Of a stretch of DNA of 64,000 bases, positions 23,096-64,000 are shown piece by piece. This stretch comes from Salinimonas iocasae (GTDB lineage: Bacteria; Pseudomonadota; Gammaproteobacteria; Enterobacterales; Alteromonadaceae): NCBI RefSeq assembly GCF_006228385.1, contig NZ_CP039852.1:248001-312000 (forward strand). The letters run 5' to 3'. The stretch's first letter is position 1, and every line of letters begins with the position of its first letter. The position numbers and the translations under genes were made by a program. The notes beneath the pieces were generated by a model. The model was given only the letters and a program-made list of their open reading frames with translations, was not told where the DNA came from and did not search any database.

Positions 23096-24229
<1,134 letters not shown>

Positions 24230-48214: not shown

Positions 48215-48364
48215 AAAATAATTGGATAGCGGTGATTTAAAAAAAACACTGCATCCCCTATCCGCAAAAAATTTTTGATAACAGTTATTTTTTATCTCAC
48301 CACCTAACCCGTTGAGCTAATCCGTGGGGTGTTGGACGGTATCTGCGGTGAGAAGGAGTCAAAG

Positions 48365-49435: not shown

Positions 49436-49443
49436 GGTGATAA

Positions 49444-49644
49444 ATGGCACGAATGTTATTGCAAAAACCAAATGGTGAAGCACTAGCTTGGTTAGATGTG
49501 TATCCAGATGGGAAAAAGCAGATTCATTTACCTTGTGGAACCCCGCTTGGATTCTATAACCCTAAAAGCAATACGACGCACCGAATGAGTGGCGCACTTG
49601 TGGGAAGGGGGGATTTGATGGCTTCTCTGATTTATAAAAGCTAA
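49444..49644 (+). CDS. Small unknown protein downstream of integrase
   Basis: A 66-residue protein beginning MARMLLQKPNGEALAWLDVY, starting eight bases after the integrase stop with GAGGTGATAA upstream. It has a beta-rich look (GKKQIHLPCGTPLGFYNP) and no membrane segment. Its tight coupling to the integrase makes it a candidate recombination or regulatory factor, but I cannot match it to a family. Confidence 0.65.
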   Translation: MARMLLQKPNGEALAWLDVYPDGKKQIHLPCGTPLGFYNPKSNTTHRMSGALVGRGDLMASLIYKS

Positions 49645-49658
49645 AGGAAGCGATAAAC

Positions 49659-49901
49659 ATGAATACTGAAGAAATCGGAATTATTGCTACTGTACCATAC
49701 GTTGAAATCCTGGATGGAGAGATTGCGGTTCATGCATTCAATAGAAAGCTTAACTATTATCAGTTGGAAAACCTAACGGAGCACAAGCAGATCCTTAGGG
49801 TTGTGTATCAGTTACTTGAGAAGGAGTGGATAGATAAAAAACTGGTGATGGAATTTATAAAACTAACTGCTGAATACCATGGTATTACTTACCGAAACTG
49901 A
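49659..49901 (+). CDS. Small unknown protein of the island
   Basis: An 80-residue protein with AAGGAAG upstream of its ATG. The sequence suggests a short beta start (IGIIATVPYVEILDGEIAVH) followed by helices. No family is recognised. It follows the previous small gene by 14 bases, so integrase and the two small genes probably form one operon. Confidence 0.6.
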   Translation: MNTEEIGIIATVPYVEILDGEIAVHAFNRKLNYYQLENLTEHKQILRVVYQLLEKEWIDKKLVMEFIKLTAEYHGITYRN

Positions 49902-50075
49902 TGGGGCTACAAAGGATACTGTTCGAGGATTTGGTGCGCTCAGTATCCCGCTTACTAAAAAAAGTTTACGGATTTGGATTGTAATGAGCTGGAAACAGGG
50001 ACGTTGTTTTAAGTGCGTACAGAACTGGAGAAAGGGGGCGACTTTTTAACCATGAATCACTTTTTTTAAAAAAAG
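49902..50075. other. Non-coding gap between convergent island genes
   Basis: No reading frame or clear terminator hairpin was found; it separates the integrase operon from two small minus-strand frames. Confidence 0.3.
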
Positions 50076-50297
50076 CTATTTTTTAATATTACGAATTGAA
50101 TTAAAGTAGTGATTTATAATTAATTCTACCATCCGCTGAAGCTGTTGTTCCGATAAAGATTCAAATCCTGCAATATTATCCAAGCACTGATAAGCGATTT
50201 CTCGGACATCATCGGTACAGAGATTAGAGCTAGCATCTTCATGAATTGCAATAGCGATACATTGAAGCTGTTCGGTAGAAAGCAAATATGTATTCAT
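50076..50297 (-). CDS. Small unknown helical protein
   Basis: A 73-residue protein from the ATG at 50297 (MNTYLLSTEQLQCIAIAIHE); a longer start at 50327 is possible. It is almost all helical and acidic (LCTDDVREIAYQCLDNIAGF). No family is recognised. It is the only clear gene facing away from the methyltransferase in this part of the island, and may be regulatory. Confidence 0.5.
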   Translation of the reverse strand: MNTYLLSTEQLQCIAIAIHEDASSNLCTDDVREIAYQCLDNIAGFESLSEQQLQRMVELIINHYFNSIRNIKK

Positions 50298-50336
50298 GCA
50301 CACACCGTCCAACCAACTAGCCGCCAATACAACAAA

Positions 50337-50438
50337 TTACTTCAGTTTATTGGGTTTAACAGGCTTCTTGCACTTCCTTGGTTTGGAAGATTTCTTAGGT
50401 TTGATAGGTTTAATTGGCTTTAAATCTCGAAGTTTCAT
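50337..50438 (-). CDS. Possible Lys/Pro-rich microprotein
   Basis: A 33-codon frame reading MKLRDLKPIKPIKPKKSSKP and onward to a TAA, with repeated Lys-Pro pairs and a net charge of about +14. It lies 39 bases upstream of the previous small gene on the same strand. There is no strong ribosome site. The periodic composition is unusual for non-coding DNA here, but it could be chance. Confidence 0.3.
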   Translation of the reverse strand: MKLRDLKPIKPIKPKKSSKPRKCKKPVKPNKLK

Positions 50439-50515
50439 ATAAATCAGTGGGTTATGCTAAATCATTGTGCTGTATTTATGTGAGGGAACAGTGAGACTTT
50501 AGCAAAGTGGTGCGA

Positions 50516-50545
50516 TGGGGTGGTGTAACCATGTTCACCACCCCA
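50516..50545. terminator. Near-perfect hairpin upstream of the methyltransferase promoter
   Basis: Stem TGGGGTGGTG / CACCACCCCA with a further AAC/GTT pairing inside, followed by CAGTTTT. It may end transcription from the left or serve as a regulatory site for the R-M genes. Confidence 0.45.
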
Positions 50546-50617
50546 CAGTTTTAGCAGCCTACAGTAGGATACTTAATCCTATTGTTTGTGCTACACAGCA
50601 ACTGCGCGCAGGACATA

Positions 50618-50626
50618 TGGTATAAT
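50618..50626 (+). promoter_or_regulatory. Extended -10 promoter of the methyltransferase gene
   Basis: TGGTATAAT (extended -10) at 50618-50626 with a weak -35 region. It predicts a transcript start near 50633, too close to the TTG at 50641 for that to be the start codon. Confidence 0.5.
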
Positions 50627-50656
50627 ATCATTGACTCAGATTGGTAAAAATTTATA

Positions 50657-50698
50657 ATGTGCTGTATAAAAAAACAGCCTTTGGTGTTAACGTTTTGA
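50657..50698 (+). CDS. Possible leader peptide coupled to the methyltransferase
   Basis: A 13-codon frame (ATG at 50657, peptide MCCIKKQPLVLTF) whose TGA overlaps a TTG start of the methyltransferase frame as TTGA. This is the only ATG near the start of that gene. It may couple or limit methyltransferase translation; there is no further proof. Confidence 0.3.
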   Translation: MCCIKKQPLVLTF

Positions 50699-52908
50699 AA
50701 AAGAACAAATTTAATGTAGCCTCTTTTTTTTCTGGTGCTGGTGGCCTAGATATAGGCTTTGAAGCAGCAGGTTTCAATATAGTGTTTGCATCAGATATTA
50801 TGGAGCAAGCTTGTCAAACCTACTCTAGAAACTTCACTCACTCCAAATTTTTTAAAAACGATATTTCTTTGATAACTAATCAAGATTTAGATAAGTTGAA
50901 GGCTGATAACGACATCGACGTAGTTATTGGTGGCCCTCCCTGTCAGGGCTTTTCGAATATGGGGAATAAAAATTCTGCAGACCCGAGAAATTATCTTTTT
51001 CAATGTTATCGGAAAGTTATTGAGCATCTTCAACCTACGTGCTTTCTTTTTGAAAATGTAAAGGGCTTTCGAACAATGTTTGAGGGGCGGTTCTTTGAGA
51101 AGGTAATTAACGAATTCTCTGCAATTGGTTACAATATTCATTACTCTCTATTAAATGCTAACGACTACGGAGTTCCTCAGAAAAGAGAAAGAATTTTCTT
51201 GTTCGGGACTAAAGTTGATAGACCATTTAAATTTCCCACCAAAGAATCAACTAGCTTTGATAATTTGAGAGCATATGCAAACGTCGGTGAAGCATTAAAT
51301 GATTTAATAGATAAAGATGAGAGTGTCCCTAACCATATTCCGTTAAAACATAGTGACACTGTTATAAAACGATATGAATTAATACCTGAAGGCGGAAAGC
51401 TTCCTAAACCTGAAGATTTGCCTGTCGAAATTAGAAGGAAGAACTTTGGCAATACCTACACGAGATTATCTAGATTTGAACCATCTAGTACAATAGTTCC
51501 GGGTAATAATGCCCTTCCTGTTCATCCAGTTTTGAACAGAAGCTTGACCCCTCGAGAGGCCGCGCGCATACAGACTTTCCCTGATAATTATATTTTCTAC
51601 GGGGATCGTCGCTCTCAATGTATTTTAGTAGGTAACGCGGTACCACCGCTTCTAGGTGCTAAATTAGCGAGAAACGTAGCATTCCATCTTAATGGAGTAG
51701 ATATCTTAGGTGAAGAGCCTGAAAAAACCATCAATAGAGGAGATGTGTATACGTTAAACAGAAAAGGCAAAGCTTCCAGAGCTAGTTTAAGATTTGCTGA
51801 TTTATTTTGCGGTGTAGGGGGGTTTACAGAAGGATTGAAAGCAGCTGGTCTAACGTCTGTGTTAAGTGCTGACTTTGATCAATATGCAGTTGATGCGCAT
51901 CGTTTAAATCACCAAGAAGAATGCGTGAAGGCTGATTTATCCAATGAGTTTGACAGAGCAAAGATTATTAAAAAGCTAAAGGTAGAGAGTGTCGATCTAA
52001 TTGTTGGTGGGCCACCATGCCAAGGGTTTTCTATTTTTGGAAACCGAAGATTCGTTAACACTAAAAAGCACGATCTGAGTAAAGATGAACGCAATGATCT
52101 TGTACACTCTTTCGCAGAGATTGTTGTTAGTGTTAGACCAAAATGGTTTATGATGGAAAATGTACCTGGAATACTATCAGCACATAATGGAAAGTATGTT
52201 AACGAGGTTAAATCTTACTTCGAAAATCACGGATACAGGGTCGAATTTAAAATAATCAATTGCGCCGATTATGGTGTTCCACAGTTAAGAAAAAGGTTCT
52301 TAATGATAGGTACTAATACTGATCTAGTAATTCCGTGGCCGAAGGCAAAGTTTTTTGCTGAACCCGAGGATTGGCAACAGGCACATAGGACTGTTGGACT
52401 AGCTCTTTCAGGGTTAGATACGGAAGATTCGTACTTTCGATTCAAAAACCATAATCCCCCAAAGCATACGAAAGTTGTTTCAGATAGATTCGGATTTATT
52501 GAAGAGGGAAAGAAGCTTGAAATTGAGAAATTACCGAGCCATCTGAAGATTGGGACAAAAACTGGAAAACCAATAAAAAACTTTAGTCATGTTTTTAAAC
52601 GATTGGACCGAAAAAAGCCCTCAAATACAATTGTTCCTGGACATAATGCTTTCCCTGTTCATCCGCGGTTAAATAGAACTTTAACAGTCAGAGAGGCGGC
52701 TAGAATTCAATCTTTTCATGATAATTACGAGTTTGTTGGGCCTATAATAAATCAGTGCTTACAAGTTGGAAATGCTTTCCCTCCTCTTGTTGCTCAACTG
52801 TTCGGAGAAAGACTGAGAACAGTTGTGAACAAAAATTGGAAAAGCGGTGAATCAACTCAATTAGCATTATATTCTATGTTAGAAGAATTAGACGCTAATT
52901 ATTTATAG
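50695..52908 (+). CDS. Double-domain DNA (cytosine-5-)-methyltransferase
   Basis: Modification enzyme with two complete 5mC methyltransferase domains fused head to tail (about 737 residues from TTG 50695). Domain 1 has motif I FFSGAGGLDIGF, catalytic GGPPCQGFSNMG, FENVKG, QKRERIF and terminal RSQCILVGNAVPPLL. Domain 2 has FADLFCGVGGFTEGL, GGPPCQGFSIFG, MENVPG, QLRKRFL and NQCLQVGNAFPPLV. No ATG lies at the start; TTG 50641, GTG 50659 and TTG 50695 are candidates, and the last gives the usual K-K-N-K-F-N-V start. Two domains could methylate the two strands of an asymmetric site, as fused adenine enzymes such as M.FokI do. It overlaps the convergent nuclease gene by six bases. Confidence 0.93.
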   Translation: MKKNKFNVASFFSGAGGLDIGFEAAGFNIVFASDIMEQACQTYSRNFTHSKFFKNDISLITNQDLDKLKADNDIDVVIGGPPCQGFSNMGNKNSADPRNYLFQCYRKVIEHLQPTCFLFENVKGFRTMFEGRFFEKVINEFSAIGYNIHYSLLNANDYGVPQKRERIFLFGTKVDRPFKFPTKESTSFDNLRAYANVGEALNDLIDKDESVPNHIPLKHSDTVIKRYELIPEGGKLPKPEDLPVEIRRKNFGNTYTRLSRFEPSSTIVPGNNALPVHPVLNRSLTPREAARIQTFPDNYIFYGDRRSQCILVGNAVPPLLGAKLARNVAFHLNGVDILGEEPEKTINRGDVYTLNRKGKASRASLRFADLFCGVGGFTEGLKAAGLTSVLSADFDQYAVDAHRLNHQEECVKADLSNEFDRAKIIKKLKVESVDLIVGGPPCQGFSIFGNRRFVNTKKHDLSKDERNDLVHSFAEIVVSVRPKWFMMENVPGILSAHNGKYVNEVKSYFENHGYRVEFKIINCADYGVPQLRKRFLMIGTNTDLVIPWPKAKFFAEPEDWQQAHRTVGLALSGLDTEDSYFRFKNHNPPKHTKVVSDRFGFIEEGKKLEIEKLPSHLKIGTKTGKPIKNFSHVFKRLDRKKPSNTIVPGHNAFPVHPRLNRTLTVREAARIQSFHDNYEFVGPIINQCLQVGNAFPPLVAQLFGERLRTVVNKNWKSGESTQLALYSMLEELDANYL

Positions 52909-54162
52909 ATCCGGTAGTGAGCTTATTTCAGTTATTTTTTTCCAATTGAAGCAAATCTCGGGTTTTGCGTTAGGTAATTTTTTAGTAATACCCAAAGCTC
53001 TCCAAAGTAGGTCCTCATATTTTAAGAAAGGCGTATTGCTTGCATTTCCCACAATACGTCTTGGATTTCTTTTTATCATGCCTTTATCAATGTATCTAAC
53101 TTCGAGCTCTTGTTGGATTTCAACATATGATTTTATACCTCTAAACTCGTTGCACAAATCTTCTAGATCCATAATTACGTCTAACTGATTTCCCGTAAAT
53201 AAAACGAGTTTAGTGAAGTAATCGTAAAAAATTTTACTAGTGGGCCCATGCACAGTTCCTAAGTGGTAAATTTTAAATCCTAGGTCAGTTAGTTCTCCCT
53301 CGGAATCAATAACCTGAACATGTTTCAGAAAGCTGAGAAAGTTTTTTCTAATTGATTGATATAGAGTATCACCAGCAGTTGCAGGGTCAGTTCTTTGTTT
53401 CAATGACTCTTGTGCTTGAGTTTTATCTACTCCAGATTTTTTTTTGATTTTTTTTATTAACTTACTACCAAAATCAATGTTTTTAGTCCCAGCTAAAGTC
53501 TTAATTGGCTTTCCCCTTATATCCAGTATCGGGGGAGTGACTAGATTATCAATATTAGAAACGGGGAAAAGCTTTTCCTTCCAGCAGGTTTCAAAAGCAT
53601 CAGAATGAATCTTTTTTGTCTTGTGTTGATAGTAGTAATCTAGAATAAGGTGAAATAGTTCGATTGGTAGGTCTTGATGCTTTGCCCAAAACCTAGTGCT
53701 ACCTATTTTCGATTTGTCGACATTATTATTCCTCATATCGACGTTATGAAGGAGCTCAACACTATCAGGATTGTCTACGTCAAAGGAAATTAAGCCCACT
53801 GGAAGGTGTCCAACTATTTGTGAATCAAATAGTGAGCTCATAAATTTAGAAATATCAAAGTCTTCTAAGAAATTGGGGATTATTAAAAATGATATATTGC
53901 TACTATTTAGATAAGCAATAGATTGACCCAGTCCGGTAAGAATACCCCTTTTGGTTTCAGTAGGGGGTTTGAACTCAAATGAAATTATTAAATCCGAAGC
54001 ATCACACCTAAAGCCTGCATCTGGTGAAGGAAAATTTGAGCTTACTCCCGTTCTATAAAATTCCGGACCAGAATTGTTTAACGATTTCCAATCTCCACAT
54101 TTAAATTTTGCCAATATTGCGTCTGTTGTCTTTTTTGTGAGGACATGATGATTGAGTGACAT
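52903..54162 (-). CDS. Putative restriction endonuclease (PD-(D/E)xK type)
   Basis: Protein of 419 residues convergent with the double methyltransferase. A PD-(D/E)xK-like core is visible near the N-terminus: Pro47-Asp48, then Glu63 and Lys65 in SFEFKPP, with Gln80 and Tyr84 in GLGQSIAYL fitting the helix after the active site. The remainder is helical with a basic middle (KLIKKIKKKSGVDK) that may bind DNA. I do not recognise a named restriction family, so function rests on the motif and on being the methyltransferase's partner. The tail-to-tail six-base overlap fits a Type II or IIS R-M pair. Confidence 0.75.
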   Translation of the reverse strand: MSLNHHVLTKKTTDAILAKFKCGDWKSLNNSGPEFYRTGVSSNFPSPDAGFRCDASDLIISFEFKPPTETKRGILTGLGQSIAYLNSSNISFLIIPNFLEDFDISKFMSSLFDSQIVGHLPVGLISFDVDNPDSVELLHNVDMRNNNVDKSKIGSTRFWAKHQDLPIELFHLILDYYYQHKTKKIHSDAFETCWKEKLFPVSNIDNLVTPPILDIRGKPIKTLAGTKNIDFGSKLIKKIKKKSGVDKTQAQESLKQRTDPATAGDTLYQSIRKNFLSFLKHVQVIDSEGELTDLGFKIYHLGTVHGPTSKIFYDYFTKLVLFTGNQLDVIMDLEDLCNEFRGIKSYVEIQQELEVRYIDKGMIKRNPRRIVGNASNTPFLKYEDLLWRALGITKKLPNAKPEICFNWKKITEISSLPDL

Positions 54163-54297
54163 ACACTAACTCTTCCGTGAAATTGAAACTACCCACAATA
54201 GTTTGCCATGATATATATCTAGTGTAAATTTTTATGATATGTAAGTTTATTATATTAAATATTACTGAATATCAATTGGTTACGTAGTGATAACAGC
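54163..54297. other. Non-coding right end of the island
   Basis: AT-rich, 135 bases, holding the promoter of the nuclease gene; nothing else is recognised. Confidence 0.4.
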
Positions 54298-54346
54298 GGA
54301 TTGAAAATCCTCGTGTCGGTGGTTCGATTCCGCCTCTGGGCACCAT
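54298..54346 (+). repeat. attR: right 49-bp direct repeat of the tRNA-Phe island
   Basis: Identical to 44325-44373. It is not a functional tRNA because the 5' part is missing. Confidence 0.93.
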
Positions 54347-54351
54347 CATTG

Positions 54352-54382
54352 AAGGCCTTGCAGCAATGCGAGGCCTTTTTTG
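54352..54382 (+). terminator. Original tRNA-Phe terminator, displaced by the island
   Basis: Stem AAGGCCT / AGGCCTT with a T run directly after attR, where the native downstream region of the tRNA is expected. Confidence 0.85.
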
Positions 54383-54819
54383 TTTGTGCTACCGTTTAGT
54401 TAAAGCAATACGCCTATGGCGGTATGTAGTTATGAATAGGCTAACGAACACTGCTTTAATCTCACTTTTATCTTCAGTTGGCTCTGCTTCACTTAAGCCG
54501 TTCTGCTTTCTTCAGTATTCCACGCCAATCCAAAACGTAAATCAGCCTGCTGATAGTCGTCGATATTCAACCAAGAATTAAAATTTTATTTGTATCTGCC
54601 ATTACGCTTATCCGCAAAAACTACCATCTCTGTTGGAGAGGCGTTTTGGGGTATTTAGTGAGTAGCGTGAAATACACCACTTTGTCTTTTCACTTTTATC
54701 AGAAGGGCTTATCGCGTAATCTTTGGGAAAGACTAAATTAAATATCCCAAAGCGGGGCTGGGAACCACACCATTTTGGGATCTATTAATATGTTATGTTT
54801 CTTAAGGATATTAAATAAT
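54383..54819. other. Intergenic region between island and first cassette
   Basis: About 440 bases. I see no integron integrase, no clear attI and no credible gene; a 71-codon frame at 54366-54581 overlaps the terminator and has no family-like features. A short inverted repeat (ATCCCAAAG and TTTTGGGAT, 54740-54781) lies just before the first cassette. Confidence 0.4.
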
Positions 54820-55098
54820 ATGCCGCTAGAAGATCATTACGCTGGCGATGAAGCGTTTGAAAAATATTCAAATTGTTTTAACTCGTTCTGGGGTAGCTTT
54901 GAGCATCAGGAAGAGTTATTAAATATGGTAGATGGTGACTTTTTGATTGCTAAACCGATAGCATACCACTTGGGTTCAAACTTTAGGGAATGGATGCATA
55001 GCCGGCCTCCTGTACTTGAAGGCTCGTCGCCCATCGAATGCATGGAAACGAAGCAAGGCAGAAACAGATTAAAGTGCTGTTTACATAGAATGTCTTAG
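54820..55098 (+). CDS. Cassette 1: orphan MbcA/ParS/Xre antitoxin-like protein
   Basis: Protein of 92 residues from the ATG at 54820 (MPLEDHYAGDEAFEK), with AAGGA about 11 bases upstream. The C-terminal FREWMHSRPPVLEGSSPIE and the Gly-Arg after it match the toxin-binding domain of the MbcA/ParS/Xre (DUF2384) antitoxins, which pair with RES-domain toxins. The N-terminal DNA-binding helix normally present is not evident, and no RES toxin adjoins. It may therefore be a solitary antitoxin or a degraded half of a pair. Confidence 0.65.
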   Translation: MPLEDHYAGDEAFEKYSNCFNSFWGSFEHQEELLNMVDGDFLIAKPIAYHLGSNFREWMHSRPPVLEGSSPIECMETKQGRNRLKCCLHRMS

Positions 55099-55107
55099 CA
55101 GTAACAC

Positions 55108-55205
55108 ATAACAATCCAAGTAAGCGGGACAATTATACGTGGGCTCCCGTCACTTCGTTCCGTATTATAGCCCACGTGTAATTGCCCCTTCTTGGGGCGT
55201 TAGCA
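55108..55205 (+). repeat. attC site 1
   Basis: 98 bases; starts ACATAAC (approximate), ends GTTAGCA, with arms ACGTGGGCT / AGCCCACGT inside. Closely similar to attC 4. Confidence 0.85.
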
Positions 55206-55215
55206 GTCATCGTCT

Positions 55216-55578
55216 ATGAATCAACTAAAAAGAAATTTTGTATTGAGCAAAGAATTCTCAGAAAACTCTTTCATTAGCATTTTTCATGAAAGCCAAACTT
55301 GGAACGATGTTGAGTACTTTAAACTAGAGAATTATCTTTACGAGGAATGCGAGAAGCACTCGAGCATTAGCGCCATTCCGAGAGAAGTTCTATTGCCAGC
55401 AACTCGTATCTACAGTTACTTATCAAATGCTATCGGCTGTCATCTTGACCCAAATGATGGTTTTGAAATAATTGGCATCAGCCAAAATCAGTTATATCAA
55501 AGACGCGAAAGATTGCAGCTGGTATTTGAAGGATTTTTCCAAGGTGAAATGCCAGCTAAAAAAAATCTTGGATATTAA
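55216..55578 (+). CDS. Cassette 2: small protein, possible Imm41-like immunity protein
   Basis: Protein of 120 residues starting MNQLKRNFVLSKEFSENSFI. The pattern with SFISIFHESQTWNDVEYF, HLDPNDGFEI and FFQGEMPAKKN recalls the Imm41 group of contact-toxin immunity proteins, but this is from memory of the pattern and needs a profile search. It has no signal peptide. No cognate toxin is in the window. Confidence 0.55.
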   Translation: MNQLKRNFVLSKEFSENSFISIFHESQTWNDVEYFKLENYLYEECEKHSSISAIPREVLLPATRIYSYLSNAIGCHLDPNDGFEIIGISQNQLYQRRERLQLVFEGFFQGEMPAKKNLGY

Positions 55579-55591
55579 ACTAAATATGACT

Positions 55592-55693
55592 GCTAACAAA
55601 AAAATTAAAACGCGCGCTGGGCGCGCTGGGACAAAAACACTGTGCCGCTAAAAGCTTAGCACAGTGTTTTTGCCCTTTATTTAGAAGTTAGTT
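55592..55693 (+). repeat. attC site 2
   Basis: 102 bases; GCTAAC start, GTTAGTT end; inner arms AACACTGTGC / GCACAGTGTT. Confidence 0.85.
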
Positions 55694-55700
55694 CGCATCT

Positions 55701-56198
55701 ATGAAGTTCAAGGATCTTAGTCAAAACTCAAAAGCATCATTAGCCTTTACCGGTATGATGATTTTTGTGTTATTAATCTTAAAACCTGCTCCAAGTTTCG
55801 ACGATTTAACTGAATTGTCAGGAAAATTAGAGTGGTTTGAAAGTATAGGCAAACATAGGGACACTCTCCGTTTTAAGCTTAAGGAGCACAAGGAAAAGTT
55901 CGTCTATCATTCTGTTGCAGGCTCAATTGGCTCGGTAACTGATGCCCTCAACAAAGAAAACGCAACACTTAAAATTGCCTTCGATCCCAATGACTCGGAT
56001 TCAGCAATTTGGGAGTTCGAAGATTTTCACCCTGTTTACCAAGTTATCAGCGACAACCACTTAATTAAAAGTTATCGTTCAACCGTGTCAAAATATAAAA
56101 GCAACAGTGAGCTAGGTATTTGGTTGTTAATAGGTGGCTTACTGGCTTCATGTCTATTTATAGTAATGGATTGGAGCATCGCGAAAGATGCGAACTAA
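55701..56198 (+). CDS. Cassette 3: membrane protein of unknown function
   Basis: Protein of 165 residues with a membrane segment near each end (about 12-28, SLAFTGMMIFVLLIL, and 137-158, LGIWLLIGGLLASCLFIVMD) enclosing about 105 soluble residues. That topology resembles DUF3592-like membrane proteins, but I cannot name it. Its stop falls inside the first box of attC 3. Confidence 0.75.
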   Translation: MKFKDLSQNSKASLAFTGMMIFVLLILKPAPSFDDLTELSGKLEWFESIGKHRDTLRFKLKEHKEKFVYHSVAGSIGSVTDALNKENATLKIAFDPNDSDSAIWEFEDFHPVYQVISDNHLIKSYRSTVSKYKSNSELGIWLLIGGLLASCLFIVMDWSIAKDAN

Positions 56199-56298
56199 CA
56201 AAAACTTAAACACGCCCGCAGTGGCGGGCTGGGACATAAACACAGCGCCGCTTCGCGATTGTAGCGCTGTGTTTATGCCAGTTAAGTAAAAGTTAGGT
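56193..56298 (+). repeat. attC site 3
   Basis: 106 bases; AACTAAC start, GTTAGGT end; inner arms AAACACAGCGC / GCGCTGTGTTT. Confidence 0.85.
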
Positions 56299-56313
56299 AT
56301 GCAAGGAAGTTAC

Positions 56314-56805
56314 GTGGAAATTAAATACACAAATACAAAGGAAGATTTGCTGGCGTTTAATGAACACCATTTGGCGAATAGCCAAGTTTATCAGCGGCGC
56401 AGAATTATAAACCTTTATGTTACTCCTTTCGTCGTATTGCTGGTTTTCTGCTTACTGGCATTTTTTACTGGAAAAACGAGTTATTACGCTGGGGGTGTTC
56501 TAGGAGCATTGGCTTCTTACTTATGGACGTTTGTTGCTTACAAACGATACGCTAAAAAATGTTCTGAAGTATTTCAAAAGGAAGTTTTTTGCGAACATAA
56601 GGTTGTTATTTCTGATGTTGGGGTAAATGAATCAACTGCTAATAGTAGCAGCCAGTTTACTTGGGATGCGCTGGATAAAATTGAGACTAATGAAGACTAT
56701 ATTTTCATTTATAACACTCCGGCAACAGCGTTTGTGATTCCAAAACGGGAAATAGGTAAAGACTCTTTTGAAGCAGTAAAACTAGCACTGGATAATGCGC
56801 TGTAG
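56314..56805 (+). CDS. Cassette 4: YcxB-like membrane protein
   Basis: Protein of about 163 residues. An ATG at 56299 lies directly at the attC edge; the GTG at 56314 has AAGGA at good spacing and is preferred. Two membrane segments (about residues 33-75) are followed by a soluble domain with FTWDALDKIETNEDYIFIY and AFVIPKREI, which matches the YcxB-like C-terminal domain. The function of that domain is unknown. Confidence 0.75.
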   Translation: MEIKYTNTKEDLLAFNEHHLANSQVYQRRRIINLYVTPFVVLLVFCLLAFFTGKTSYYAGGVLGALASYLWTFVAYKRYAKKCSEVFQKEVFCEHKVVISDVGVNESTANSSSQFTWDALDKIETNEDYIFIYNTPATAFVIPKREIGKDSFEAVKLALDNAL

Positions 56806-56810
56806 TGCAT

Positions 56811-56910
56811 ACCTAACAAACCAAGTCAGCGGGACACTAACACGTAGGCTCCCGTCACTTCGTTCCGTAATTTAGCCTACGTGTTATTGCCCCTGCTTGG
56901 GGCGTTAGGT
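56811..56910 (+). repeat. attC site 4
   Basis: 100 bases; ACCTAAC start, GTTAGGT end; arms ACACGTAGGCT / AGCCTACGTGT. Confidence 0.9.
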
Positions 56911-56917
56911 TTCTATA

Positions 56918-57331
56918 ATGACTGTCGTTCCTTCATTCTTTCTGACAGGGCTTGTCACTTGTATTGGTTTTCTAATTAGCACTTTTGTACCAGCTATTCT
57001 TTTAAGGTGGCTTGGAAAGCAATATCCACTATTAAAAGTAACCAATCCATTTCGTGCTATTTATATAACAGCAATAATTGCGCTTGCTGTTCGTGCTCTT
57101 ATTGCTGCACCTCAAATAGCTATCGCGTCAAATGTACACGGTATCCAAATCTTAGTGCCTCCATATCTTATTTGCTTTTTCATTGTTGGCTTCATAGTTT
57201 TTAGCAAACAGCTTGAAGGGGAACATTATGGGAAAAAGGAAGCAATTTCCTCCGCTGGAATTTCGCTAGGGTGTGTTTTGTGGTATTTACTAGTTGAATT
57301 GGCCGTTTATACGTACATTTCACAAACCTAA
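56918..57331 (+). CDS. Cassette 5: polytopic membrane protein
   Basis: Protein of 137 residues with four hydrophobic segments (starting near residues 5, 47, 78 and 113). No family is recognised. The start is ATG, 8 bases after attC 4, and the stop is inside the first box of attC 5. Confidence 0.7.
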   Translation: MTVVPSFFLTGLVTCIGFLISTFVPAILLRWLGKQYPLLKVTNPFRAIYITAIIALAVRALIAAPQIAIASNVHGIQILVPPYLICFFIVGFIVFSKQLEGEHYGKKEAISSAGISLGCVLWYLLVELAVYTYISQT

Positions 57332-57442
57332 CAAGCGCATCAACACTCGCTCCGCTCGCGGGGGACAAATACACGTAGGCTCCCCTCGCGTTGCTCGGTA
57401 TTATACCCTACGTGTATTTGCCCGTTATGCGGGAAGTTATGT
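57326..57442 (+). repeat. attC site 5
   Basis: 117 bases; ACCTAAC start, GTTATGT end; arms ACACGTAGG / CCTACGTGT. Confidence 0.85.
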
Positions 57443-57453
57443 GTCTAGGAGAG

Positions 57454-57708
57454 ATGGGCATCTTTGAAGTCTTTATGTTGGCGTATTTGCCCATTGGTAC
57501 ACTTTTATTAAATAAGTGGCGAAAACGTATTTATTATTCAAATGCCAAGCGAAGAGGTCTATATCTATTAGTCTCAATTGCGATGGCTGCATTGCCATTC
57601 ATTTACGTTAGTAGCATTCAAGAAGAGCGTTCAGCTTTAGGTGTTGTGCTTGCTGGCACTGGCTTATTCTGGTTCGCTATTGTTGGTTCTCGTAGTTCAG
57701 CCACATAA
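57454..57708 (+). CDS. Cassette 6: small membrane protein
   Basis: Protein of 84 residues from ATG 57454; an ATG inside attC at 57439 is also possible. There are three hydrophobic stretches (VFMLAYLPIGTLLL, LYLLVSIAMAALPFIYV, LGVVLAGTGLFWFAIV). No family is recognised. Its stop lies in the first box of attC 6. Confidence 0.6.
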   Translation: MGIFEVFMLAYLPIGTLLLNKWRKRIYYSNAKRRGLYLLVSIAMAALPFIYVSSIQEERSALGVVLAGTGLFWFAIVGSRSSAT

Positions 57709-57818
57709 CAAGCGCATAAACTCTCGCTGCGCTCGCTAGGGACAAAAACACGTAGGCTCCCTTCGCTTCGCTCGGTATTATAGCCTACGTATTTTTGCCC
57801 GTTATGCGGGTGTTAGCA
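57703..57818 (+). repeat. attC site 6
   Basis: 116 bases; ACATAAC start, GTTAGCA end; arms ACGTAGGCT / AGCCTACGT. Confidence 0.85.
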
Positions 57819-57834
57819 ATACAAGGAGAGTCTG

Positions 57835-58539
57835 TTGAAGTATTCGTTAATTATTTTATTCGTCTATTCTTTTTCACTATCTGCGAATATTTTTGAGGAT
57901 ATTTCGTGTGGGAAATATGATGCTTCAATTTACCCTAGCAAAACAGAATTTAAAGGAAGTGTGGAAAGTGAAATAACAGAAATAGGCATTGAAGAATTTT
58001 TTAATGAGGTAGACAAAATTGATCCATCAGAGCCTCAATGGTTATTCTCATTAGTTGATCGAGAAACGGGGAAATATAAAAAATCATTTCCTAGAAAGGC
58101 ACCTAATAGTAATAGTGGTGTTGTGATTGAACACCAAACTATTCAACCTCATCTTATTTATCGTGTCGGGGATAATATTCTTGCGAGTAGTAATAATGGT
58201 GAGTTTGGTGGTTCATTGGTTTTAATCGACAAAAATAATAAAGTTACACTCATTGAAGAAATGAATATCGAAGATATTTATGAAATGCCTTTTGGTCTAG
58301 TTATTACATCTGGACTAGCACATATGTCATGGAATTACGGTGATATTTATTTAGTAAATGAATACTTTCAACTTGAAAAGCTATATAGCTTAGTAGGTAT
58401 GCCACAGTCTTCTTGGTTATTAGAAAATGGTGATCTACTTATTAATAGTTACCCTTCAGGCTCTCAAGTTTTAACAAAAAATGGCTATATGAAGCGTGTG
58501 CAATGTATTGCTAACAAGTCGTTAAAGCAGGACAAATAA
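57835..58539 (+). CDS. Cassette 7: exported protein of unknown function
   Basis: Protein of 234 residues with a TTG start preceded by AAGGAGAG. The N-terminus is a signal peptide (LIILFVYSFSLSANIFED). The body is beta-rich with repeated strand-like stretches (VGDNILASSNNGEFGGSLVLI), suggesting a propeller-like fold. The last ten codons read into attC 7, so its C-terminus is encoded by the recombination site. Function unknown. Confidence 0.7.
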   Translation: MKYSLIILFVYSFSLSANIFEDISCGKYDASIYPSKTEFKGSVESEITEIGIEEFFNEVDKIDPSEPQWLFSLVDRETGKYKKSFPRKAPNSNSGVVIEHQTIQPHLIYRVGDNILASSNNGEFGGSLVLIDKNNKVTLIEEMNIEDIYEMPFGLVITSGLAHMSWNYGDIYLVNEYFQLEKLYSLVGMPQSSWLLENGDLLINSYPSGSQVLTKNGYMKRVQCIANKSLKQDK

Positions 58540-58608
58540 CAGTTGGCTTTTGCTCCTGCGTCGCTTATTTTAGCCAACAATTATTTGCCTCTTAACGAGG
58601 CGTTAGGT
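58509..58608 (+). repeat. attC site 7 (overlaps the end of cassette 7 gene)
   Basis: 100 bases; TGCTAAC start, GTTAGGT end; arms AACAGTTGGCT / AGCCAACAATT (imperfect). Confidence 0.85.
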
Positions 58609-58612
58609 GTCT

Positions 58613-59335
58613 ATGAGCATTCGAAAAATACCAAACTCCTTTCGCTACTCAGAGGAGCTTTTTACTGAGTACAGCCGGACTAGCCTCGAAAACGCTCACG
58701 ATCTTATAGAAGAGGCTGAGTTACTGCTCAAGCAAGGAAAATTAGCACGGGCATATTTCATTGCCATTGCCGCTATAGAGGAGATAGGGAAGTCATTCAT
58801 TGCATATGATGCGCAAGGGCGGAATCTGAACGACTCTGCAGTTACCGCTAAAATTAGATACTCTCTTGAAAATCACTCTAAAAAGATAAGCTCTGCCTTT
58901 CACGCTTCAGTGATCAGCCATAGCGATATAAAAAATGAGTTAATGACGTTTGTGGACATCATGATTGCGCTGAAGAATGGTCGAGAGCCATCAATGTACA
59001 CAGATATAAATTATTCCACGGGCGAGATTCAAACGCCTGGGCGAGTAGTTTCACCACGTGCCGCGAATGACTGTGTTCAACTGGCAAAGCATTGCTACTA
59101 CAAAAATATCGAGCATCAAAAAACACGGCCCCCTACTGTAAGGTCCCAAAGCGAAGATCATTTTTACGGAATGAAGGATGGAAAGGTTAATCAGCTGTTC
59201 AACACGGAGGACTTTTGGTGGTTTCATATCTCAAGGATGGAGGCTGGGAATCAGGATGTTTCGGAGTCCATACTCGAATATCAAAGGGAGTACTTGAGCA
59301 AAGGGAAACGGTTTAAGCCGGAAGATGCCGAGTAG
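58613..59335 (+). CDS. Cassette 8: AbiV-family HEPN protein, probable phage defence
   Basis: Protein of 240 residues. The first half (NAHDLIEEAELLLKQGKLAR, then FIAIAAIEEIGKSFIAYDAQ) matches AbiV-type abortive infection proteins, HEPN-fold proteins first known from lactococcal phage defence. The EEIGK segment is the family signature. The classic RNase R-x4-6-H of many HEPN toxins is not obvious, so its chemistry is uncertain. ATG 58613 is preferred to GTG 58607, which lies in attC. Confidence 0.75.
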   Translation: MSIRKIPNSFRYSEELFTEYSRTSLENAHDLIEEAELLLKQGKLARAYFIAIAAIEEIGKSFIAYDAQGRNLNDSAVTAKIRYSLENHSKKISSAFHASVISHSDIKNELMTFVDIMIALKNGREPSMYTDINYSTGEIQTPGRVVSPRAANDCVQLAKHCYYKNIEHQKTRPPTVRSQSEDHFYGMKDGKVNQLFNTEDFWWFHISRMEAGNQDVSESILEYQREYLSKGKRFKPEDAE

Positions 59336-59339
59336 TGGC

Positions 59340-59399
59340 ACCTAACAATTCGCGTCACGCGGACGCACTAAAGTGCGCCGGTGCGCTCTGGCGTTAATC
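59340..59399 (+). repeat. attC site 8 (short form)
   Basis: 60 bases only; ACCTAAC start, GTTAATC end; arms GCGCACTTT-like region (CGCACTAAAGTGCG). Unlike the other ten, it has the compact form seen in clinical integrons. Confidence 0.8.
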
Positions 59400-59414
59400 A
59401 CCAAAGGACATTGG

Positions 59415-60008
59415 ATGTTTTCAAATTTCATTAAACAATTTTCTTCAGTTCTCTATGTGCAGATCTGGGAAGATCGCTTGAAAGTTACTGATGTGACTAA
59501 TAATGAGTCATTCGACGATGCGCCAATTGTTGTTATTCAGACTCAAGAAAAGGGAAAAAAGGTCATTTCCGGTATAGGAAAGAAAGCTGCAAACTCAGTG
59601 AAAGAAAATGAAGTCGCAATTAATCCTTTTTCGCATCCCAGAGCGCTTCTCTCTGATTTCTATGTTGGTGAAAAGTTGCTCCAGCATGCTTTTAAAAATC
59701 TATCTAATATCAAAAATCTTCGTCCCCGCCCCAAGGTGGTTATGCATCCTATGGAAAAGACTGAGGGTGGATTAACAGCAATTGAAGAACGAGCATTTAG
59801 AGAGCTAGCGCTTGGAGCAGGAGCAATAGAAATCAAAATTCACGTTGGGAAACCTCTAAACATTCATGGGTTTCAATTCGAAGAATTTCAAGGACAAAAG
59901 AAATCGGACCCATCTGGTGAAGAGAAGAGCCAATATTCCAGCAATGTAGCCACGTTTCTAGTTTATCTTGTTATAGTAATTTTGGCGCTTTGGTATTTTG
60001 GTGACTAA
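59415..60008 (+). CDS. Cassette 9: membrane-anchored partial MreB homologue
   Basis: Protein of 197 residues, ATG with AAGGA upstream. Residues about 65-148 align without large gaps with MreB: DFYVGEKLLQHAF against host [23 protein letters not shown] against [10 protein letters not shown], and RAFRELALGAGAIEI against [15 protein letters not shown]. The N-terminus (MFSNFIKQFSSVLYVQIW) parallels MreB's, but the phosphate-1 loop DLGTANT is gone. The protein ends before phosphate-2. It then has a polar linker and a C-terminal membrane segment (VATFLVYLVIVILALWYFG). It thus keeps the first actin subdomains, cannot bind ATP normally, and is tethered to the membrane. A role in altering MreB filaments is inference. 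Confidence 0.8.
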   Translation: MFSNFIKQFSSVLYVQIWEDRLKVTDVTNNESFDDAPIVVIQTQEKGKKVISGIGKKAANSVKENEVAINPFSHPRALLSDFYVGEKLLQHAFKNLSNIKNLRPRPKVVMHPMEKTEGGLTAIEERAFRELALGAGAIEIKIHVGKPLNIHGFQFEEFQGQKKSDPSGEEKSQYSSNVATFLVYLVIVILALWYFGD

Positions 60009-60111
60009 CAAAACAATAAACACGCTGCGCTGGGACAACTACTCGCAGGCTCCCGTCGCTAGCGCTCCTATTTTACCCTGCAAGTAATTGCCCGTTATTG
60101 GGGCGTTAGGT
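60003..60111 (+). repeat. attC site 9
   Basis: 109 bases; GACTAAC start, GTTAGGT end; arms ACTCGCAGG / CCTGCAAGT (imperfect). Confidence 0.85.
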
Positions 60112-60119
60112 GCTTGGTT

Positions 60120-60548
60120 GTGAATTTTAGATTCTTACTATTAATAATGCTCTCTTTGCCAGTAGCTTCCGATGAGTTAGAGCTAGTATTTCGAGAATCC
60201 CATTTTCTGGGCCAGTATCGTCATGAGATTTATATAAATACTGGGCAATATATTTACATTGATGACCATTTCAAACTTGATAGTGATAGTAAATGGGTGC
60301 CCAAGACTCCTACTCTAAAGACAAAATTTTTAAATACAGACGAACAAGCTGACCTAATAAATCAGCTAACTAAATTGGGTGTTAACAACTGGAAATCAGA
60401 ATACCCTGAAAATGATATTGCTTTAATTTGCGACGGGCTATCATTCACTTTCTACCTTAAGTCAGACAAACTTAATGTGTATTCGTCAGGAGGTTGTCGC
60501 TTCCCACTAAATTACGAAAAAGTCAGGCAAACATTGGAAAACTTGTGA
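60120..60548 (+). CDS. Cassette 10: small exported protein
   Basis: Protein of 142 residues from GTG 60120 (a TTG at 60114 is also in frame). It has a short signal peptide (FRFLLLIMLSLPVASDE) and a mature part with two cysteines (ALICDGLSF and SSGGCRFP) that may form a disulfide. No family is recognised. Confidence 0.65.
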   Translation: MNFRFLLLIMLSLPVASDELELVFRESHFLGQYRHEIYINTGQYIYIDDHFKLDSDSKWVPKTPTLKTKFLNTDEQADLINQLTKLGVNNWKSEYPENDIALICDGLSFTFYLKSDKLNVYSSGGCRFPLNYEKVRQTLENL

Positions 60549-60552
60549 ACGC

Positions 60553-60658
60553 ACCTAACAAGAAAATTAAGTCACTCACTTCGTTCGCTGGGACGCATAC
60601 ACGTGGGCTGCTTCGCATTTTAACCCACGCGTCTGCGCCCCTTATTTAAAAGTTATGT
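60553..60658 (+). repeat. attC site 10
   Basis: 106 bases; ACCTAAC start, GTTATGT end; arms ACGTGGG / CCCACGC. Confidence 0.85.
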
Positions 60659-60673
60659 TTCTCGGAAGATATT

Positions 60674-61123
60674 TTGGAAAATTTAGTAAAAGTCAGCATT
60701 ACGCTGACATCGGATAACATTCAAAATGCCAGTACAGAAACTTTGTGGGCAGAGCCTCTGGGCAACGATCATTACAGACTTCAGAACTCGCCGTCCGCGG
60801 CTTATGGTTTTAGCTATCTTGATGTTGTAAAAGCAATAGGTAACGAAACTCCAGAGGTTGTAGAAATTGTTGAAAACTCGGGTCATTCAACTTATCGAGT
60901 ACTACTAGAAGCTGGAGTTCTAGAAAGCGATAGATTTGGGCAATTTTGGCAGAAACTTGAAAACATTGGTTGTACTTATGAAGGATCTCAATCAAAGTTG
61001 CTAAGTATTGATGTACCACCTTCAACCGATATATTTACCGCTTATTCAATATTAGAATCCGGTGAATCTGCGGGAGTGTGGGAGTTTGAAGAGGCAAAAT
61101 GTGCTCATAGCACCGAAACATAA
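60674..61123 (+). CDS. Cassette 11: DUF4265-like protein
   Basis: Protein of 149 residues with a TTG start. The stretches ETLWAEPLGNDHYRLQNSP and GFSYLDVVKA match the DUF4265 pattern, a family common in cassettes and polymorphic-toxin immunity settings. It has no membrane segment and is presumably cytoplasmic. Function unknown. Confidence 0.7.
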   Translation: MENLVKVSITLTSDNIQNASTETLWAEPLGNDHYRLQNSPSAAYGFSYLDVVKAIGNETPEVVEIVENSGHSTYRVLLEAGVLESDRFGQFWQKLENIGCTYEGSQSKLLSIDVPPSTDIFTAYSILESGESAGVWEFEEAKCAHSTET

Positions 61124-61233
61124 CAAACCACTCAAGGCTCTCGCTTCGCTCGCTGGGACGCTAACACATGGGCTGCGTCACTCCGTTCCTTATTTTAGCC
61201 CATGTGTTATCGCCCCTTAGTGGGAAGTTAGGT
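61118..61233 (+). repeat. attC site 11, last in the array
   Basis: 116 bases; AACATAAC start, GTTAGGT end; arms AACACATGGGCT / AGCCCATGTGTT. Confidence 0.85.
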
Positions 61234-61248
61234 TCAGGGAGGAGCTCA

Positions 61249-61596
61249 TTGGCATTATTTAAAATTGCAGCTATTTTAGCAATCTTATCGTTGGCTGGTT
61301 GTCTTGTTGCAAACGAGAAAGCATTTATTGCTCATAAGGCAGATGATTACCAACGTGAAATACTTATCTCACTCAAGTTGCTATCAGAATACGCGTACGG
61401 TTGTAACGAGAAAAAATTCGGTAATTTTTTGGCATATGCTGAGCACTCCGTATCAGCATATGAAAGGAAAGTTAAAGATTTAGAAATCCCTTTGTATTTT
61501 TTCGACGAGGATTTTATGAATCAGCATAAAAAATTTGTGGGTAAGTATAACTCTGACTTAAACATAGCTAAGGCCACTATTAACAACTGCAAATGA
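61249..61596 (+). CDS. Cassette 12: lipoprotein, no downstream attC
   Basis: Protein of 115 residues with a TTG start preceded by AGGGAGGAG. The N-terminus is a lipobox signal (LAILSLAGC). The mature part is helical and charged. No family is recognised. Lack of an attC after its stop marks the broken end of the array. Confidence 0.65.
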   Translation: MALFKIAAILAILSLAGCLVANEKAFIAHKADDYQREILISLKLLSEYAYGCNEKKFGNFLAYAEHSVSAYERKVKDLEIPLYFFDEDFMNQHKKFVGKYNSDLNIAKATINNCK

Positions 61597-61716
61597 ACTT
61601 AGTATCAACTCCCAAGTGCAACATTGATCTCACATCATTAGCTTGAAAATGACTGTAATATCTGAATACCTATAAATCATATACAATTCTGTTACACGTA
61701 AAAAAAGGATTTTTAA

Positions 61717-62001
61717 ATGAAGTGTTTCGTGTTCTTAGCTCTCTGCATTCCACTGCTAAATGCTTGTATCGTTGTGCCGCAAACTGATACCGCCAAGATA
61801 AACAAATGCGAAATTTCCTCAGATCGTAAAACGCTGAAAGTCATCAACGGATTTGAAGATACCAATACGTTTTACTCAATCAGTGGCCTGATGCTTCTTC
61901 CAATAACGGGTGTTGTTTCCGGTACTTATGTTGCTATCAATAATGTTTACCACCTTGGTGAGGAAACGCTGGTTTGCAGAACGAAAGATGCCGCTATATG
62001 A
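61717..62001 (+). CDS. Small lipoprotein
   Basis: Protein of 94 residues. MKCFVFLALCIPLLNAC is a lipoprotein signal with lipobox LLNAC. The short mature part contains one hydrophobic glycine-rich stretch (SISGLMLLPITGVVSGTYVA). AAAAGGA lies before the ATG. No family is recognised, and it is not part of the cassette array. Confidence 0.65.
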   Translation: MKCFVFLALCIPLLNACIVVPQTDTAKINKCEISSDRKTLKVINGFEDTNTFYSISGLMLLPITGVVSGTYVAINNVYHLGEETLVCRTKDAAI

Positions 62002-62016
62002 CTCGTATCTCTGTAA

Positions 62017-62175
62017 ACCTCCCTTATTAAAATAGCGGAATACCTCTTAAGAGTTCTTCGGTTTACAAAACGGGGCGGTGAGCCTGAGGAAGTTGCCGCC
62101 GCAATAGCATGGTTACTGTCAGATGAAGCGTCGTATGTCACAGGGTCGTTTATTGATATTGCTGGTGGTAAATAA
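62017..62175 (+). pseudogene. 3' remnant of a short-chain dehydrogenase/reductase gene
   Basis: The frame ends with GGEPEEVAAAIAWLLSDEAS followed by YVTGSFIDIAGGK and a stop, the standard C-terminus of classical SDR enzymes. About the first 200 residues, including the NAD site and the YxxxK motif, are missing, and there is no start codon. It is probably a scar left when the accessory region was inserted or deleted. Confidence 0.85.
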
Positions 62176-62360
62176 GCGCTGATGCCCGCATGTGAATAGT
62201 GACTTTATAAGTGTGATCTAAATCAGAAGCTGCCCTTGTTCAGCGCACTCATCAAGGTTTTGCTGCTGGCGCTTGAAATATGAACAGTAATGCATATTAA
62301 TATAAAACAGGCGATGGTCGTAAAGCTGCCGCGCACATGTTTACTCTACAGGGAAATTCA
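62176..62360. other. Intergenic, no feature recognised
   Basis: 185 bases with no gene; should hold the promoter of the next gene. Confidence 0.3.
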
Positions 62361-62723
62361 ATGATCAAGTGGGAAGATTTGAGCTGGCAACAAAAGGCGG
62401 CGTTTTGGGTTGCTATAGGTATAGTGGGCTGGTTTTCACCGGAAATTGCGCTGCTGTTTCATTTTGGTGGCATTGAAGTTGTTTTTGCCTTCATAGCGTT
62501 TTACTTCATTCCTATCCTAAGGCAGATTCAGGCACATTATTATAAGTTCAGACGAGCGCTAACCCTCGCCATTGTTACTTACCAGTCCAGTGCTTCTGCG
62601 AAACCCAGGGTTTATTTCACACAAGCAGTGTTTTGCTCAGCAGCCTTTGCGCTAACCGGTTCAGTGGCGCTTGCTGCAGTATTTTTTATGCCGGGTATGC
62701 TGATGAGTAACGTACTGACTTAA
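62361..62723 (+). CDS. Small membrane protein of unknown function
   Basis: Protein of 120 residues from ATG 62361 with AGGGAAA upstream; the frame is open from 62337. There are two to four hydrophobic segments (AAFWVAIGIVGWFSPEIALL, VVFAFIAFYFIPIL and two near the C-terminus). No family is recognised. Confidence 0.65.
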   Translation: MIKWEDLSWQQKAAFWVAIGIVGWFSPEIALLFHFGGIEVVFAFIAFYFIPILRQIQAHYYKFRRALTLAIVTYQSSASAKPRVYFTQAVFCSAAFALTGSVALAAVFFMPGMLMSNVLT

Positions 62724-62888
62724 AAGGCGTCAGCGAAAAAAAGTGAAGGCCTAAGGTGCTGTTTCTGCTGTTCTAGCATACCGATATTTCTGGTTGTACT
62801 TATCAAATTTCACTTCTCGTAGCGACCCGCATCACTTTTGTGGTTAATTGTGGCAAATGTGTTTCTGACCATAAGGTTAGGGTGATTT

Positions 62889-64000
62889 GTGACTACAATG
62901 CAATTTATGACTGGTTTGATAGCGTCATGGATGGTTTTCTCCGGCGTTGCTGCTACCTCAGTCGACCAACAGACACTGAATGAAGCAGACTCTAAGAATG
63001 ATCAGTGGCTCGCTCACGGCAAAAATTACAGCGAAACCCGCCATAGTCCCCTGAAACAGATAAATACCGACACGGTAAAAGATCTGGTATTACTGAATAA
63101 AACGGTACTGCCGGACTGGCGAGGTGTTGAGGCTACACCACTGCTGATTGATGGCATAATTTATGTCACCGGCCCCTGGAGTAAAGTCTTCGCCGTTGAT
63201 GCTAAATCCGGTGAAATTCAATGGTCCTACGACCCTGAAGTTCCCCGGCAGGCGGCAATTAACGGCTGCTGTGATGTGGTTAACCGTGGCGTTGCTGCGT
63301 GGCACGATAAGCTATTTTTTGGCACTTTCGATGGCAGACTTATCGCGCTCGACAGAAAGACCGGCAAAAAAGTGTGGGAGCAGCTAACGGTTGATAATAG
63401 TAAGCCATACACCATCACAGGTGCGCCGCGGGTTGTAAACGGGCTGGTGTTTATTGGTAATGGTGGTGCTGAGTTTGGTGTGCGAGGCTATTTCTCCGCC
63501 TACGATGCTGACTCCGGTGAAATGCAGTGGCGCTTTTATACGGTGCCGGGAAACCCGGACGAAGGCTTTGAGAATGAAGCGATGCGCAAAGCCGCCGATA
63601 CCTGGACCGGACAATGGTGGAAGTACGGCGGGGGCGGTACGGTCTGGGATTCAATGGCCTATGATCCTGAGCTTGACCTGTTGTATGTTGGAACGGGTAA
63701 TGGCTCACCCTGGGATCGACACCAGCGCAGCCCTGAAGGCGGCGATAATTTATATCTCTCATCTATTCTTGCCATTAAACCTAAGACCGGTGAGCTGAAG
63801 TGGCATTACCAGACAACGCCGGGCGACTCCTGGGATTTCACGGCGACCCAACACATGATTCTGGCTGATATTGAAATTGAAGGACAGACTCGAAAAGTAC
63901 TGATGCAGGCCCCAAAAAATGGCTATTTTTATGTTATCGACAGGGTCAGTGGAGAGCTGATTAGTGCCGATGCATTCACCTACATGAATTGGTCTACCCA
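62889..64000 (+). CDS. PQQ-dependent alcohol dehydrogenase, N-terminal part
   Basis: Quinoprotein dehydrogenase running off the right edge (about 370 residues visible). The start is GTG 62889 with AGGGTGA upstream; ATG 62898 is the alternative. A signal peptide ([13 protein letters not shown]) sends it to the periplasm. The propeller begins [16 protein letters not shown], the vicinal cysteines of the active site are in [10 protein letters not shown], and tryptophan-docking repeats such as [13 protein letters not shown] and [13 protein letters not shown] are visible. It oxidises alcohols with PQQ and calcium. Whether it has a C-terminal cytochrome domain cannot be seen. Confidence 0.93.

Follow-up and report, generated by a model that had tools for sequence, protein, structure and literature searches.

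The window analysed here, a stretch of 64,000 nucleotides of Salinimonas iocasae DNA, carries on its plus strand a gene that runs from an ATG at 59415 to a stop codon ending at 60008 (59415..60008), just where an earlier sequence-only reading had placed it, and that encodes a 197-aa protein. This product, referred to below as half-MreB, is laid out as a helix, MreB-like subdomains IA and IB, and a second helix, without a nucleotide site. The ATG is preferred over a longer GTG start at 59373 because the GTG sits within an attC site. Bounded by the core sites G^TTAATC and G^TTAGGT, the gene cassette spans 59394..60105 on the plus strand, with 21 bases between its core site and the ATG. The attC of the preceding cassette, 60 nt in length (59340..59399, plus strand) and with core sites paired at 6/7 positions, was missed by the attC model and was listed on the complementary strand in core-site pairing, while that of the half-MreB cassette itself (60003..60111, plus strand) was matched by the model at E 2.6e-16, being one of its 14 model-building sites. 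Both belong to a CALIN, an attC array without an adjacent integron integrase (54792..61233, plus strand, its left end read by eye), that comprises ten model sites and the short site at 59340. Sites of this genome, among them nine of the ten in the window array, went into building the model; the array site at 58509-58608, outside the model-building set, was recovered at E 4.2e-9. Rfam gave no attC match in 44000-64000. No integrase lies beside the array, and the only match over the IntI cut-off was found at C1:3344167-3345105 (443 bits); a second integron-integrase-like gene of the same genome, at C1:1457764-1458468, contains two stop codons. The earlier description of an integron cassette therefore stands as regards attC core sites on both sides of one ORF, with the qualification that the array is without an adjacent integrase.

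The cassette just upstream (58607..59335, plus strand) encodes a HEPN AbiV protein (Pfam PF18728, E 9.6e-26; PADLOC AbiV, E 1.7e-9), and other cassettes of the array match Imm41, DUF4265 and YcxB in Pfam. The Imm41-type cassette at 55216-55578 has a close copy, judged by eye, at L096:2841-3209, where it is the second cassette beside the integron integrase of this genome, and these copies suggest cassette exchange between the window array and the integrase-bearing array. The first ORF of the array (54820-55098) weakly resembles the C-terminal domain of an Xre/MbcA/ParS antitoxin, at a score under the cut-off (E 8e-4). Upstream of the array lie a tRNA gene (44297-44369), an 845-aa ORF (45677-48214), a tyrosine-recombinase-like ORF with weak integrase matches (48329-49435) and, slightly below the gathering score, a partial tRNA match (54277-54334, 27.6 bits), and together these suggest an integrated element of ~10 kb (44297-54334) that ends right before the attC array. 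Also within this putative element are an ORF resembling a restriction enzyme (52903-54162) and a gene for a 755-aa protein (50641-52908) that contains two C5-methylase stretches. The neighbours of half-MreB genes vary from locus to locus: with the shared synteny of close species set aside, no conserved operon partner was found, a few protein families recur in two to four loci, at differing distances, and nothing conserved nearby points to a role in the cell wall.

A chromosomal, full-length MreB encoded in the same window (23186..24229, plus strand) is both a relative of half-MreB and its presumed target. By BLASTP the two proteins share 41 of 109 residues (38%, E 3e-15), and a profile of 43 relatives is colinear with residues 1-141 of the window MreB over 137 columns, without rearrangement (E 8.5e-20). 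The alignment to the first 150 residues of MreB that had been claimed from the letters thus survives as colinearity with residues 1-141, although its clearest part covers only half-MreB residues 36-142. The predicted structure has an actin-type IA/IB fold like that of MreB, with a strong structural match, where the absence of such a match had been named as grounds for giving the idea up. The order of residues 1-141, the IA/IB fold and counterparts of the N-terminal and dimerisation helices are accordingly what half-MreB has in common with MreB (PF06723, TIGR00904). MreB, in contrast, possesses four features that half-MreB lacks. Its phosphate-1 motif, D16-L-G18-T19, is replaced by Q16-I-W18-E19 (codons 16-19, QIWE; 59460..59471, plus strand), and this replacement is near-invariant among 143 relatives (Q in 138/140, W in 139/140 and E in 134/140). 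Similarity then stops at about residue 141 of the 347 in MreB, and the catalytic glutamate of the IDEP motif, phosphate 2 and domain II are all absent; on the destroyed phosphate-1 loop and on the loss of everything from phosphate 2 onwards, the initial reading was right. Scores against Pfam MreB_Mbl (PF06723; 22.9 bits, cut-off 27) and TIGR00904 (26.7 bits, cut-off 365.75) fall below threshold. Because defining features of an MreB were looked for and not found, half-MreB is not an MreB.

What has been kept is unevenly distributed. Codons 1-9, MFSNFIKQF (59415..59441, plus strand), are colinear with MreB residues 1-9 and probably correspond to the amphipathic helix through which Gram-negative MreB binds the membrane, a role described in an extract of PMC4051119. 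Averaged over 28 members, identity to the window MreB is highest in residues 121-137 (0.64); it then falls from the N-terminal helix (residues 1-10) and residues 71-97 (0.38 each) through the loop and strand after residue 97 (0.32), IB (0.30), the part behind residue 137 (0.29) and the turn (0.21) to b3 (0.12) and the phosphate-1 region (residues 11-27; 0.05). The peak, codons 121-137 (59775..59825, plus strand), aligns with the main dimerisation helix of MreB and is identical to residues 119-135 of the window MreB at 12 of 17 positions. The family has two signatures, NPFSHPR (codons 70-76; 59622..59642, plus strand) and HPMEKTEGGLT (codons 111-121; 59745..59777, plus strand), the latter being longer than its MreB counterpart owing to a 4-residue insertion in that region seen in both BLASTP and profile alignments. 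The protein ends in a membrane-type helix (codons 172-197; 59928..60005, plus strand) that is supported by hydropathy, with a strongly hydrophobic best 19-residue Kyte-Doolittle mean of 2.4, and by the structure model, where residues 172-196 form a helix. This added C-terminal helix had been noticed from the letters, but it is a trait of a subgroup only, since it occurs in 92 of 100 sequences at least 180 aa long, compared with 3 of 43 shorter ones.

In NCBIfam the best match of half-MreB is the YjaA family stress response protein (NF041448; 58.8 bits, E 5.6e-16, below the cut-off of 125), with MreB second (E 7.4e-7). In hhalign, E. coli YjaA (b4011) is matched with a probability of 98.2 and E 4.1e-14, and 43 of 43 members of a set of relatives (A2) match NF041448. 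The two proteins have FFVAEKxLQ-type and EGGL[ST]xxE stretches in common; they differ in that YjaA, at 127 aa, is without most of the IB stretch and without the tail helix, whereas half-MreB keeps IB and adds the tail. By these alignments half-MreB is clearly related to YjaA, though it lies under the YjaA family cut-off, and the single gene first singled out in the window, while real, belongs to a larger family of which YjaA is part. Roughly one in two complete E. coli genomes has yjaA, a gene used in phylogroup PCR. Extracts of two papers describe YjaA as a stress-response protein (PMC3050900; PMC13313352), and the first of them cites yjaA in peroxide, cadmium and acid stress (PMC3050900). 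Further reduction is seen in an IA-only cassette protein (L096:2265-2714, with relatives P0146-P0151) that sits beside the integron integrase of the same genome as the window and is without both IB and the tail; dN/dS in one pair of these IA-only relatives is 0.46, which indicates weaker constraint.

The family itself is large. In a first search, 294 of 477 candidates passed E 1e-3, and a profile search gave 651 matches among 7492; the best 120 from each search were inspected, and the remainder may include short or partial MreBs. Across 143 sequences (P0002-P0144), N70-R76, H111-G119, E124, E130 and G136 are highly conserved. In four pairs of genes dN/dS was 0.206, 0.100, 0.149 and 0.114, and in six more it was 0.094, 0.27, 0.112, 0.093, 0.103 and 0.097, with dS saturated in the three comparisons of the window gene, L100 and L101 with one another; another pair has no synonymous difference. 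The half-MreB family is thus under purifying selection, with dN/dS of 0.09-0.27 across ten pairs. That the gene is a degraded MreB duplicate without function could be suggested by its broken copies, namely one with a frameshift in Paraglaciecola chathamensis (L046; best segment 83% identical) and three with stop codons (L044, G028:C1:3979834-3980421 and G434:C55:126420-127007), and the existence of these copies does indicate that the gene can be lost; selection at this strength, the near-invariant private motifs and hundreds of relatives nevertheless make such a remnant extremely improbable. A broken full-length MreB was likewise rejected, on the basis of the short homologues, the separate MreB branch and the dN/dS constraint, and the homologues seen are short proteins rather than full-length MreBs broken in this assembly alone. 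One metagenomic protein of 393 aa (P0125), on a contig of 1456 bases, joins an amidohydrolase domain to half-MreB and could be either a fusion or a read-through.

In a tree of 50 rows, built by a quick method without an inferred root and with MreBs taken only from the window's order, 15 MreBs come together on one branch with support 100, whose stem is 1.8 changes per column long. The 25 halves do not form one clade in it, their label needing three changes, and MreB and YjaA-like rows interleave with them at unsure forks; on this quick tree a single origin of the halves is no more than possible. Repeated recent truncation of each host's MreB was rejected, given that the MreBs form one branch and the halves are not grouped with their hosts' MreB. 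Distribution is patchy. With the own genome counted each time, the gene was found in 8 of 59 genomes of the genus, matches at E 1e-30 or better were found in 6 of 40 relatives, and 4 of 369 in the class were positive at E 1e-24, one of these four being an open frame of YjaA size (127 aa). Such patchiness implies that cells do well without half-MreB.

Mobility of the gene elsewhere is less evident than in the window. A Colwellia member (L055), outside the model set, has attC on both sides (E 3.3e-7 and 9.9e-9), the P. chathamensis copy has one directly upstream (E 2e-9) and a near-identical cassette start behind a different attC sequence, a third locus (L060) has one upstream (E 6.1e-5), and two more (L090 and L041) have core sites or remnants read by eye. 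A first, insensitive motif-and-fold screen placed attC upstream of 6/59 members, downstream of 6/59 and on both sides of one, as compared with 4.8%, 4.4% and 0.2% of 480 control ORFs. In a count of end motifs, which left out the window copy, L096, L097, loci L012-L016 and L045, downstream core-like sites accompanied 7/55 members versus 2.4% of 544 control ORFs, upstream sites 13/55 versus 11.2%, and sites on both sides 2/55 versus 5/544. Seven more genomes of the genus have the gene (one copy broken); they contain attC sites, but none of those listed flanks it. Most members outside the window are therefore not in recognisable cassettes, and the attC enrichment is modest. A viral or phage origin was also considered and rejected: a scan of viral contigs gave no close relative, a phage collection gave two weak matches only, at 39% coverage and with one in a 691-kb bacterial contig, and the best matches in a viral structure library were Hsp70-type proteins (E 2.5e-4). 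Among plasmids, 12 records had weak partial matches, none at 80% coverage.

Extracts of PMC4051119 call the MreB helix that matches residues 121-137 of half-MreB the "main dimerisation helix" of double filaments, and an extract of PMC5624674 defines this helix as well. As the former source relates in part, V118E in Caulobacter MreB yields single protofilaments, and E. coli cells with MreB V121E stay spherical (PMC4051119). V121 corresponds to I123 of half-MreB, where 141 of 143 relatives have I, V or L, and F84, a surface-exposed residue on the flat side of MreB (PMC5624674, in extract), corresponds to F82, which is F in 140 of 143. As a fold control, DnaK of the same genome agrees with MreB at 4 of the 17 helix positions, compared with 12 for half-MreB and 7 for E. 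coli YjaA, in an ungapped comparison with the DnaK anchor placed by the analyst's own judgement. Similarity to MreB in the dimerisation helix, as judged from these alignments, is above what a shared fold would lead one to expect. The helix also packs on the core, and its conservation may be structural.

The reading favoured here, with a confidence that stops a little short of even, is that half-MreB is a membrane-held, nucleotide-independent copy of one MreB face that pairs with MreB and tunes its double filaments. The N-terminal helix, joined in this subgroup by the tail helix, would anchor the protein to the inner membrane, and its dimerisation helix would pair with the flat side of the host MreB. 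Without a nucleotide site and domain II, half-MreB should not take part in the end-to-end contacts of a protofilament, and for this reason it might instead replace the partner protofilament, thereby limiting or tuning the antiparallel double filaments by which MreB drives elongation. A lateral contact is favoured over end-capping because the best-preserved surface is the lateral dimerisation helix. The effect would probably be a mild, conditional adjustment of shape or growth under stress and not that of a killing toxin.

Other findings fit this reading less comfortably. The private motifs NPFSHPR and HPMEKxEGG, together with W18 and E19, could mark some other binding or active surface, and the serine that IA-only relatives (those of cassette-1) carry at the V121 position, the patchy distribution and the lack of a cell-wall neighbour also count against pairing with MreB. 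The protein may have an independent role, in which it would pair with itself through the old dimerisation helix as a membrane dimer, with the private motifs serving a non-MreB ligand or envelope protein. The strongest conservation within the family does lie largely in motifs absent from MreB, the long stem sets the 15 sampled MreBs apart, YjaA is described in connection with stress, and a literature search for yjaA with MreB brought up a single, unrelated paper. It would be odd, however, for the segment closest to MreB to be the filament-pairing helix if MreB were irrelevant, and we regard this role as unlikely, though worth keeping in sight.

A main rival arises because part of the kept face is used by MreB poisons. 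By displaying part of the MreB flat side while itself being dispensable, half-MreB could act as a decoy that shields the real MreB by soaking up toxins or phage proteins directed at that side, such as CbtA-like toxins, prophage KilR or phage inhibitors. According to an extract of PMC5624674, substitutions at F84, I126, V173, D192, E196 and E262 on the flat side of MreB disrupt CbtA binding. F84 and I126 fall within the retained half, as F82 and F128 of half-MreB, but the other four of these six sites lie beyond it, and V121E is without effect on CbtA binding (PMC5624674, same extract). Similarly, KilR associates with MreBCD, but its toxicity is not relieved by extra MreBCD, as an extract of PMC12482147 has it. 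Phage defence is often found among integron cassettes (PMC12690207, in part) and the cassette just upstream encodes AbiV, although this neighbour is one cassette of a reshufflable array and the sole PADLOC match among seven proteins scanned is a weak Csn2 (E 0.037) in one relative. On balance, a decoy is conceivable but improbable.

The same AbiV neighbour, and the existence of MreB inhibitors such as CbtA, A22 and KilR (extracts of PMC5624674 and PMC12482147), could also be taken to favour the suggestion made in the sequence-only reading, that half-MreB caps filament ends or, on expression, stops growth as a growth-arrest or abortive-infection factor. This suggestion has not fared well, and we consider it quite improbable, for the half-MreB cassette contains no second ORF of at least 60 aa as a possible antitoxin, the window protein has no match to a PADLOC family at E 0.1, no partner gene is conserved across loci, and the best-kept helix is a lateral one. 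The first two of these results, with the description of YjaA as a stress-response protein, are also the reasons for preferring a regulator over a poison. CbtA (YeeV) itself offers a useful comparison: in an extract of PMC5624674 this small protein is proposed to target the flat side of MreB and to disturb its double filaments, and half-MreB perhaps works, by analogy, like CbtA or A22 at the filament-pairing face. CbtA and half-MreB differ in that CbtA is the toxin of a toxin-antitoxin pair and also hits FtsZ, whereas half-MreB is related to MreB itself.

MamK, BeeR and other actin-like filaments are full two-domain, nucleotide-binding actins, and half-MreB differs from them in this respect. 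A closer parallel in terms of cargo is provided by accessory peptide deformylase cassettes, in which, as part of PMC12690207 describes, a core-gene paralogue occurs in chromosomal integrons and CALINs as half-MreB does; most of those deformylases keep their catalytic residues, while half-MreB has lost its nucleotide loop. The same extract states that a systematic scan for essential or core genes in cassettes is not yet done (PMC12690207). The earlier remark that no such system has been described agrees with the literature searched, in which the titles and abstract openings listed (preprints and most subscription journals excepted) held no half-MreB, MreB-derived cassette or YjaA-MreB homology; in extracts of PMC3262767 and PMC7716436, mreB is used only as a typing gene.

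It is possible, although we put it forward as a doubtful proposition, that these proteins make up an undescribed class of half-actins in Gammaproteobacteria that derives from MreB, has shed its nucleotide loop and domain II, keeps its membrane and dimerisation helices and replaces the second protofilament, with YjaA as a trimmed member and with integrons spreading MreB regulators. The sources that name these proteins mostly say "rod shape-determining protein (MreB)", a name that hides both the missing nucleotide loop and a separate family. The link to MreB gives the little-understood yjaA of E. coli a testable target. If they do bind MreB, half-MreBs would be natural regulators of MreB double filaments, and a derivative of an essential cytoskeletal gene would, if this is true, join the cargo of integrons.
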